A DNA stretch of 64,000 bases from Balneolaceae bacterium (GTDB taxonomy: Bacteria; Bacteroidota; Rhodothermia; Balneolales; Balneolaceae), in contig JAXHMK010000009.1 in assembly GCA_034521495.1 (NCBI GenBank), positions 799,001 through 863,000 of the forward strand, in the 5' to 3' direction. Made by a program: the position numbers and the translations under genes. This document shows, piece after piece, positions 7,071-63,876 of this stretch. Within the stretch, counting starts at the first letter, position 1. Each line of letters opens with the position of its first letter. The notes beneath the pieces were generated by a model. The model did not search any database, was not told the origin of the DNA, and worked only from the letters and a program-made list of their open reading frames with translations.

Positions 7071-7155
7071 AAATCGGAAATCGAATATCAAATCTCTTGT
7101 AAAACCGTTCGAAACTGTTAATTTCGCGATTTTTGAGATTTCCGATATTCGATTT
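7071..7155. repeat. Cargo-less inverted array of 7-bp units
   Basis: The left arm (7071-7098) is made of heptads AAATCGG, AAATCGA and ATATCAA-like units. The right arm (7128-7155), read on the minus strand, is made of AAATCGA, ATATCGG and AAATCTC-like units, so the two arms form an imperfect hairpin with about 29 bp between them. It lies between convergent genes (DUF2892 and cryptochrome). The 7-bp periodicity matches the arrays that enclose the S23 genes at 39252-39736 and 43256-43799. Confidence 0.6.
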
Positions 7156-39292: not shown

Positions 39293-39655
39293 TCAGTTAT
39301 TTTTTTCGACCGATTGAATAAAAAGATTAAGTTTTTTCCCAACTATATCACAAAGTGAAACTAATTCATGATATAACCTTTGATCTTTTAAGGACTTAGT
39401 TTCGAAAAGGGAATCCAAATGATCGCGGGTCTCATCGTTTGATGCCTGGGCAAAAACTAAAAATCGGATGTACTCCTGCTTATACCGCCTTCTGCCATAG
39501 CCTTCGACTATATTTGATCTCACTGACTTTGCCGAACGTCTGATTTGACTCCCAGTTTCATACATTTCGAATTTAGGAAGGGTAAGTGACATAGCATGTA
39601 TTTTATTTGATTGTGCTCTCGCTAATTTCCAGATTTCCTGATTCCTGTAACTCAT
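39293..39655 (-). CDS. S23-family four-helix-bundle protein (cassette A)
   Basis: 120 residues. [20 protein letters not shown], the central [18 protein letters not shown] and [19 protein letters not shown] define the S23/four-helix-bundle family (TIGR02436), known from 23S rRNA intervening sequences and related to the Avd protein of diversity-generating retroelements. The likely role is nucleic-acid binding; it is not enzymatic. It is not inside an rRNA gene. Inverted heptad arrays enclose it (39252-39279 and 39709-39736). By my count the first 72 residues differ from the 43397 copy at about 13 sites. Confidence 0.85.
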
Positions 39656-43396: not shown

Positions 43397-43759
43397 ATGA
43401 GCTACAGGAATTTAGAAATTTGGAAACTTGCAAGAAAACAATCGATTCTGATTCACAAAATGTCACTTTCACTGCCGCAGTTTGAGCTTTATGAAACAGG
43501 AAGTCAAATTCGCCGATCAGCGAAATCAATTCGTTCCAATATTGTTGAAGGCTATGGCAGACGACGCTATAAAAGTGAATATATTCGATTTCTGATATTT
43601 TCACATGCTTCGGCTTTAGAAACTCTTGACCATCTTGAAACGCTTGCAGAAACCGGATCTTTAACAGACATGGATCAATATCAAAAAATTTGGAATATTG
43701 TGGATGAATGCGGAAGAAAACTCAATAAATTTATATCGGGAGTGGAGCGTGAATATTAA
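43397..43759 (+). CDS. S23-family four-helix-bundle protein (cassette B)
   Basis: 120 residues from ATG at 43397; an upstream extension to 43355 is not supported. It carries the same family core as the 39293 copy ([55 protein letters not shown]). It lies on the plus strand, opposite to both neighbours. The flanks are heptad arrays of a different sequence from those of cassette A. The proteins are close paralogues while the repeats are cassette-specific. Confidence 0.85.
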
Positions 43760-62987: not shown

Positions 62988-63638
62988 ATGAAGTATCCAA
63001 TATTTCAGTCTGTTGTTAATAAGATAAACAGGTCATTAAACAAGAGGAATATAAATGTTGTAAAGTTCAAAACATGGGAAGAATCGAAGATCAATGCAGC
63101 AGGACTTGAAATTCTTATTGACCTTGAGGATTCTACAGAGCATTTAACGCATCTGTCCATCAATTTTGACTGGGATCGTTTCCGCGAAGCTGCTCTTGCC
63201 AATAAATTAGATGGTACGGGCGGTCATCCAATGTTAAAATCTAAACGCCTGATTGAAGCCAACGTTGTTCCCTCTATCGACATTGAATTGGTTTGGCATT
63301 TTGATGTTCAAAGCTGTCAGCCGGCAAACGGAACAGAAGATGATAATTTCAGAATCCAGATGGCCAGTGAATGGATGGACCAGGCCAGCAAGAAGGTCAA
63401 TGAACTTTTAATTTCAGATGATATTATAACACGCTGGCATATTGAGATTGATGGCGATGAATATGGAAAATACCTGACAGCTATCAACTTACTTTCCTAT
63501 TTCCAATTCTCCGTTGGAGAGTTAAACAGCCTGAACGAAGTGCATGAGTATGTTGGCAGGAAGCTTACCCATCTTCTCTTTAAAGCTAACAGAATTATAA
63601 AAATAGCCGACAGTTCTGTTGTGGTTCAGGCAGCATAG
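62988..63638 (+). CDS. Hypothetical protein, 216 residues
   Basis: No family is recognised. The sequence is soluble, mixed alpha/beta and without a signal peptide or membrane segment. Tracts worth noting are LDGTGGHPMLKSKRL, an acidic patch around VPSIDIELVWHFDV, and a C-terminal helical part that ends KIADSSVVVQAA. Divergent from rqcH (46 bp apart) and convergent to the mS38-like gene. A heptad inverted repeat starts at the base after its stop codon. Confidence 0.65.
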   Translation: MKYPIFQSVVNKINRSLNKRNINVVKFKTWEESKINAAGLEILIDLEDSTEHLTHLSINFDWDRFREAALANKLDGTGGHPMLKSKRLIEANVVPSIDIELVWHFDVQSCQPANGTEDDNFRIQMASEWMDQASKKVNELLISDDIITRWHIEIDGDEYGKYLTAINLLSYFQFSVGELNSLNEVHEYVGRKLTHLLFKANRIIKIADSSVVVQAA

Positions 63639-63729
63639 CAGGCCTCAAGTTACAAGTCTCATGATATATGATATGATTCGGGTGCTGATTTTAGTGTCTG
63701 TTAACCTGTATCCTGAAACTTGCACCCTG
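63639..63729. repeat. Cargo-less inverted array of 7-bp units
   Basis: The left arm starts at the base after the stop codon: CAGGCCT, CAAGTTA, CAAGTCT and CATGATA-type heptads to about 63680. The right arm (63702-63729), read on the minus strand, is CAGGGTG, CAAGTTT, CAGGATA and CAGGTTA. Both arms have the CAGG-then-CAAGTT order. Only about 22 bp separate the arms and no gene is enclosed. Confidence 0.6.
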
Positions 63730-63731
63730 AA

Positions 63732-63762
63732 TAAAAAAAAGGGCACAATCAATTGTGCCCTG
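63732..63762 (-). terminator. Intrinsic terminator of the mS38-like gene
   Basis: GGGCACAAT (63741-63749) pairs with ATTGTGCCC (63752-63760) around a two-base loop, and on the minus strand a run of eight Ts follows. It lies 22 bp after the stop codon. Confidence 0.85.
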
Positions 63763-63783: not shown

Positions 63784-63876
63784 CTACTTTCTCTTTTTAT
63801 GCCTGTTTTTTCTCAGACGTTTTTTTCGTTTGTGTTTCGCGATTTTTGATCGTTTTCTTTTCTTTCCGCTTGGCAT
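63784..63876 (-). CDS. 30-residue basic protein, AURKAIP1/COX24 (mS38-like) ribosomal type
   Basis: ATG at 63876-63874 opens MPSGKKRKRSKIAKHKRKKR, followed by LRKNRHKKRK and TAG. The K-H-K-R-K-K-R-L-R-K-N-R-H-K pattern is the signature of the short bacterial relatives of COX24/mS38, small-subunit ribosome proteins. GGGTGA lies about 7 bp upstream as a ribosome site, and a strong terminator follows. Two thirds of the residues are Lys or Arg. Confidence 0.8.
   Translation of the reverse strand: MPSGKKRKRSKIAKHKRKKRLRKNRHKKRK

Follow-up and report, generated by a model that had tools for sequence, protein, structure and literature searches.

The window analysed here is the whole 64-kb stretch of a Balneolaceae genome of 4.57 Mb (G000:C9:799001-863000, where G000 is this genome). 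Close to its right end lies a 91-bp feature made of two arms of seven-base units (heptads) that face each other across a short spacer (Table 1). Downstream of the right arm come AATAAAAAAAA and then a terminator-like hairpin, which fits the small basic facing ORF because its T-run is on the minus strand. This ORF, which may be AURKAIP1/COX24-like, matched no Pfam family, and the upstream 216-aa gene matched no Pfam or NCBIfam family. The latter gene is present in 55 of the 58 genomes searched (own genome included). Another 39 loci were taken from named or MAG records; among named relatives, Rhodohalobacter sulfatireducens WB101 (L093, 91% protein identity) and R. halophilus (L131, 75%) are the nearest. 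The S23/IVP family (PF05635), small four-helix bundle proteins, occurs 12 times in this genome, two of them in the window. Rfam gave 0 matches at gathering score in the 64-kb window, and a weak period-7 run (AAATCGGAAATCGAATATCAAATCTC) was seen at window 7071-7096.

Table 1. Features of the 91-bp heptad pair, its neighbours, and the S23 genes of the window (window coordinates)
Feature	Position	Strand	Remarks
Upstream gene, 216 aa	62988..63638	+	Stop codon TAG adjoins the array
Left heptad arm, CAGGCCT CAAGTTA CAAGTCT	63639..63659	+	Begins at the first base past the stop codon TAG (63636-63638)
Spacer between arms, 42 nt	63660..63701		Without S23 similarity
Right heptad arm, CAGGGTG CAAGTTT CAGGATA CAGGTTA	63702..63729	-	Minus-strand reading, 63729 down to 63702
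Whole putative insertion, 91 bp	63639..63729		In relatives, the stop codon leads to AATAAAAAAGGGCAC directly or via other, mostly shorter, filler
Terminator-like hairpin GGGCACAATCAATTGTGCCC	63741..63760	-	Minus-strand T-run; insert-free relatives have it too
Small basic ORF, 30 aa, facing the array	63784..63876	-	From sequence; conserved by eye in relatives
S23/IVP (PF05635) gene between CTGG-flavoured heptad arms	39326..39643	-	Loaded cassette in the window; profile-match coordinates
Second S23/IVP gene, arms of GAGATNN / GATTNGG type	43406..43729	+	Profile-match coordinates

Both arms were found as originally predicted, with three heptads starting right after the TAG and a complementary arm to which a fourth unit, CAGGTTA, can be added. 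The further claim that the arms share their unit order holds for the first two units, which are of the same class (CAGG, then CAAG), but not for the third; overall, 13 of 21 positions are identical between the arms. The pair is not a product of chance in this genome, because the pattern CARGNNN x3 occurs 63 times versus 0 times for the same pattern read backward, and because 60 dinucleotide shuffles of the window yielded 0 inverted pairs within 120 nt (single triplets per shuffle: 0 on the plus strand, 0.017 on the minus strand). The backward control is less clean elsewhere, as some of the 58 genomes have more backward than forward occurrences (G032, 2 forward versus 122 backward; G043, 3 versus 34). 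The 91-bp feature has inverted, inward G-rich arms of period 7 at a gene boundary. It and the right arm of an S23 cassette on contig C21 score low in the period-7 measure used below, which misses degenerate arms.

The gene boundary in related genomes

We compared the distance from the stop codon of the 216-aa gene to the terminator A-tract across 24 loci of the genus Rhodohalobacter (L063-L086). In 14 of them this distance is 3-6 nt, in three it is 13-15 nt, in four 22-36 nt, and one locus has no such tract. The distance is 102 nt in a sister genome (G015) and 94 nt in this genome, the latter being 91 bases plus AAT. Positions 63639-63729 coincide with the insertion edges drawn from this comparison, which shows the 91 bp to be additional, apparently lineage-specific DNA where most of the genus has an empty boundary.

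The same place in G015 holds 100 bp of other sequence. It aligns with the 91 bp no better than expected by chance (178 of 1000 shuffles do as well), and we therefore rejected the G015 insert as a diverged copy of the same insertion. In another genus, Gracilimonas mengyeensis (L119) has an inverted heptad pair of its own at this gene end, TTTTGAGTTTTAAGGTGTGAGTGTTTAG ... CTAACACCTCACACCTAAAACCTCAAAG, as judged by eye.

Miniature inverted-repeat elements (MITEs) and solo-terminal-repeat derivatives are short non-coding inserts with inverted ends that have a loaded form elsewhere. The insert resembles them in being short and non-coding, in its inverted ends, and in having a loaded counterpart at another site whose ends are of the same kind. 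It differs from them in three respects. First, neither a second full copy nor the several near-identical copies expected of a transposon derivative were found in 28 genomes of the genus, where a partial match was an 18-nt identical stretch of the S23-loaded CAGG cassette on C21. Second, the junctions (TAA/AATAAAAAAGGGCAC versus TAG/insert/AATAAAAAAAAGGGCAC) show no clear target-site duplication. Third, the ends vary from copy to copy.

Heptad arms at S23 genes

PF05635 is present in 45 of 58 genomes of a set of relatives and in 232 of 296 of a phylum-wide set (own genome included). For the flank, flavour, and orientation counts, we used the best PF05635 matches, which are not a random sample and include orthologous sites. 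Period-7 runs of at least 10 were found in 42 of 114 S23 flanks, versus 0-7 at periods 4-6 and 8-12; these flanks belong to 57 of 64 loci, the other seven having been dropped for short flanks. The outer flanks of the S23 loci had such runs in 8 of 114 cases. At the level of the phylum, period 7 was seen in 17 of 56 flanks (after removal of one run of N, at L306), versus 5 of 56 outer flanks and up to 7 at period 8.

The sequence flavour of the two arms tends to be matched. Among the 34 of 85 loci in which both arms were detected, the flavour match is 0.70 within loci versus 0.47 between loci, a difference reached in 0 of 10,000 permutations. In only 18 of the 34 does the right arm of the locus itself give the best match, and in 7 of the 34 the two arms resemble each other more as direct repeats than as inverted ones. 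When read inward, G exceeds C in 64 of 74 arms. S23 protein identity correlates with flavour at rho 0.117 (42 of 2000 permutations), and the idea that the type of S23 sets the flavour holds weakly at most.

Arms also keep close to gene ends. For 32 of 45 arms, the outer stop codon is at most 10 nt away from the array edge, versus ~10% of random positions, a null based on gaps between long ORFs that overstates gap length; 35 arms fall within 20 nt and 10 beyond it. In 17 of the 32 near arms the stop is inside the array, since heptads contain stop codons and an ORF that runs into the array ends there. The distances refer to ORFs rather than curated genes, with start codons guessed in L045, L050, L057, and L203. 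Genome G011 has an S23 copy whose CAGG arms abut a TAG on one side and the next ATG on the other. At the L005 site, the G011 copy has a collapsed left arm and has lost half of its S23 gene; S23 loss by deletion hence happens.

Some orthologous sites carry S23 in opposite orientations (L004 versus L191; L001 versus L182 and L183), which may reflect a flip or a separate insertion. The two are indistinguishable because L188, which belongs to a different site, is no more distant from L004 and L191 than those two are from each other. At one site, sister species have different S23 genes with different flavours (L002 versus L202). A two-box motif, TGTAAG-(mostly 17 nt)-TTCATA, is present in 23 of 64 loci at no more than 400 nt from S23 and in the outer flanks of 1, and is a possible candidate for a promoter or an S23 operator; L001, L006, L008, L010, and others carry it upstream of S23. 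The S23 protein of L001 matches a solved structure (2gsc). Against the Avd model of diversity-generating retroelements it scores 33.1 bits, below the cut-off of 80, and a role of S23 with a reverse transcriptase is a lead rather than a result.

S23 matches in a plasmid collection are mostly cyanobacterial (41 records). We analysed 14 of these 41 loci, among which L404 and L405 are near copies. Gaps flanking S23 have period-7 runs in 21 of 28 cases versus 5 of 18 other gaps, and in a comparison of periods, period 7 was found in 19 of the 28 versus 0-5 at other periods. The flavour match in the seven loci with both arms is 0.78 within versus 0.58 between loci (10 of 10,000 permutations), and 12 of 14 arms have more G than C when read inward. 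Some S23 genes, together with their heptad arms, lie inside CRISPR operons of these plasmids, as cas6-S23-cas4 (L394 and L396) and cas10-S23-cmr3 (L400). The short tandemly repeated repetitive (STRR) heptamers of cyanobacteria are degenerate seven-base arrays; arrays like them are found here on both sides of S23 genes, on cyanobacterial plasmids.

Arrays without S23 genes

Manual grouping of the CARG pattern in this genome gave 22 separate arrays: two flank the S23 gene on C21, three are inside ORFs, two make up the 91-bp feature, and 15 are other arrays without S23. Thirteen of 16 S23-less CARG sites start at most 10 nt from a start or stop codon in a reading made partly by eye (the exceptions are L044, L046, and L056). 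Many of the arrays are one-armed, and the inverted pair is not the sole form; long perfect arrays (CAGGTTT x14, CAGGTCT x8) also exist. Besides abutting start codons, arrays enter coding regions, because two similar ORFs, kinase-like by eye, share one heptad stretch, AAAACGCAAAAGGCAAAAGTGAAAAG, with a CCCTCTCCC-type repeat after it (L333, 2942-2967 and 9363-9388). A CARG array also lies in the 3' part of a hexapeptide-transferase gene (L044, 2284-2358); the G011 gene is without it, and the G000 ORF ends at it.

We next sampled 20 stretches totalling 400 kb of this genome, which contain none of the 12 S23 genes. They hold seven intergenic period-7 runs at about six sites, compared with 0-4 intergenic runs at other periods (4 at period 12, the rest 0-2). 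Set against 12 S23 genes in 4.57 Mb, about six sites per 400 kb means that S23-less arrays outnumber S23 genes roughly six to one, an estimate from a small sample of this genome. The original prediction that arrays can exist alone is borne out by this count and by the boundary of ctaA. In this genome, ctaA is bordered by an S23 gene between CAGG arms; its sister G015 lacks S23 there and carries CCAGAAA x6, which abuts the start codon, with a further array visible by eye on the opposite side. Of the remaining loci, 17 are readable, and none of these has a period-7 run above 6.5 in 400 nt; one more locus ends too early. This comparison shows S23-loaded and S23-less states of one boundary in sister species. 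A second candidate for a loaded and solo pair, the G011 S23 gene and the C14 array of this genome, was rejected despite common flanking genes: the G011 cassette starts past the gene's stop codon, and the C14 array lies ~100 nt before the stop, inside the gene.

Three other boundaries (frr-SMC, DUF520, and an isomerase-like gene) have different flavours in different species and several inverted pairs, as judged by eye, and no S23 in the 260 nt read; the DUF520 gene is presumably yajQ. Other small repeats share such boundaries. Several species carry a different palindromic repeat, CATGGTATTTC ... AAATACCAT, at frr-SMC (L283, L286, L289, L296, and L298), and a palindrome close to GGCGCAAGCGTCTCGCTTGTGCC sits between or beside heptad arms in L334, L343, and L349. 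On the level of sequence comparison, array type, orientation, and gene-end position are shown to be alike at S23 loci and S23-less sites; at both, one G-rich heptad extends from either neighbouring gene into the gap. Likewise, arm flavours are matched within a locus, and the same boundary has different flavours in different species.

Origin of the heptad pairs

We tentatively regard the 91 bp as a lineage-specific insertion, that is, a cargo-less, inward-facing heptad pair at a gene boundary and a solo member of a class with an S23-loaded minority, and we give this reading slightly less than an even chance. The arrays would be ends that an insertional process leaves behind or recognises, a process that favours gene boundaries or survives nowhere else. 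Such a process would write the same G-rich heptad on both sides of a gap, and slippage and drift would later degrade the units. S23 would be its cargo or helper, dispensable at individual sites. A process of this kind would explain the gain of 91 bp, the repeated use of boundaries, the matched flavours, and the link to S23. The insertion probably has no effect on its neighbours, as the upstream gene keeps its stop codon and the facing gene its hairpin. Several findings speak against an insertion. The insert comes without a transposase, a clear target duplication, or a second copy, and the site may simply accept filler, given the unrelated sequence in G015. One-armed CARG arrays, the direct-like arms in 7 of 34 loci, the weak tie between S23 and flavour, and the noisy backward control in other genomes point the same way.

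The main rival is neutral growth, which we consider unlikely. A short G-rich seed at a gene end would expand through slippage of the polymerase, and quasipalindrome correction, in which the template is switched between imperfect inverted repeats, would make the arms alike, with no mobile process and no role for S23. Flavours that differ between sites and match within them are what such growth would give, as are single-arm arrays, long perfect arrays, an insert present once, and unrelated filler in a sister species. Slippage is also a hypothesis quoted in the available part of an earlier study of heptamers (PMC4692102). Neutral growth leaves the S23 association in two phyla and the inward G-rich orientation unexplained.

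The original prediction had called the pair an empty form of the S23 cassettes. The insert shares the common CAGG flavour and the 18-nt stretch with the loaded C21 cassette, and S23 genes do decay by deletion elsewhere (the G011 copy at the L005 site), so this pair could be what remains of a cassette that lost its cargo at this very site. We find this improbable. When 49 S23 proteins were compared by tblastn with up to 1500 nt past the stop codon at 69 loci (a set that includes this genome's own locus, has many genomes twice, and contains a few shorter contigs), no match was found, and the proposed check for an S23 gene at this site in relatives thus came out negative. Among these loci, no PF05635 ORF was found between arms at this site, here or in a relative, and the 42-nt spacer has no S23 remnant. 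The 18-nt match consists of common CARG heptads. The insert also lacks the upstream motif TGTAAG-N17-TTCATA, to which we attach little weight since only 23 of 64 S23 loci have it. Because no S23 gene turned up in the 69 loci, nothing shows that the site ever held cargo; because, in addition, the boundary is empty in 14 of 24 genus loci, the phrase "empty form" is apt as a class resemblance but not as a history of lost cargo.

Another suggestion, that the pair is a transcript-end hairpin or terminator for the 216-aa gene, is now disfavoured and in our view very improbable. The pair does sit between convergent genes, directly after a stop codon, and other solo pairs fold well, with best z between -3 and -7.5 in seven of nine regions (-1.3 and -1.8 in the other two). 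The 91-bp pair itself shows no folding advantage over shuffles (z -0.8 and -1.2) and has no U-tract, and so does not offer the stable hairpin plus U-run of an intrinsic terminator. A hairpin with a T-run that would serve the facing gene already adjoins it, and arrays elsewhere abut start codons or lie inside coding regions. Lastly, an action of the pair through G-quadruplexes, as proposed for GGGAATC repeats, is hardly credible: position and orientation follow the same rule as in Xanthomonas and Nostoc (PMC4692102, in the part available), but the arm units have GG or a single G, with one GGG only, in the right arm, and a quadruplex of the type described there is not expected.

The available part of PMC4692102 describes G-rich heptads, GGGAATC or GGGGA(C/T)T, at gene ends in Xanthomonas and Nostoc, including facing inverted pairs. 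Like the heptads here, these are intergenic units near the 5' neighbouring ORF, with a described orientation and many loci per genome. They differ in having one flavour per genome, where we find many, and in forming quadruplexes from a GGG tract in each unit, which the CARG arms do not have. In Xanthomonas, 90% of gene-end heptads lie between the same genes in two species, and their surroundings are more stable than controls; according to the authors, they generally show no association with mobile elements. These findings argue against the insertion reading. The same part of the source has 0 occurrences of S23 and reports no such heptamers on plasmids. TAACTGA direct repeats of Beggiatoaceae, some cyanobacteria, and five Bacteroidetes (PMC4679880, as far as available) are likewise seven bases long and close to gene ends. 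They are one fixed heptamer, with 169 direct sets and one inverted set in the main genome, mostly before start codons, and the available text does not mention S23. In Coxiella, the 23S rRNA intervening sequence has an S23 ORF bordered by inverted repeats able to form a stem and is called a selfish element in the available part of PMC4990558; it differs in lying inside 23S rRNA, with a 28-bp near-perfect stem cut by RNase III. The 91-bp insert has no S23 and lies between protein genes rather than in 23S rRNA.

A wider proposal, to which we assign a low probability, is that heptad arrays and S23 form one insertion system across Bacteroidota and cyanobacteria. It would open gene boundaries and add G-rich heptads to the 3' ends of both flanks in a telomere-like manner, with S23, a presumed relative of the retroelement factor Avd, as a carried helper. 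Solo pairs would be its cargo-less products, and the heptamers of cyanobacteria and Xanthomonas its footprints. The pairing and orientation of gene-end heptads are not new, having been described in Xanthomonas and Nostoc (in the part of PMC4692102 available). What seems new is the matching of flavours, the S23 link in two phyla, and the evidence from empty sites; no paper linking S23 genes to heptad arrays was found in the open-access literature.

Orphan S23 genes and gene-end heptamers, both unexplained, sit together in two phyla. They follow rules that can be tested: period 7 with matched flavour, the G-rich strand inward, and arms that abut a start or stop codon. Neutral growth of the arrays would still leave the S23 link to be explained. 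If they are made by an insertional process, they would represent a new way for bacteria to gain intergenic DNA without harming genes.
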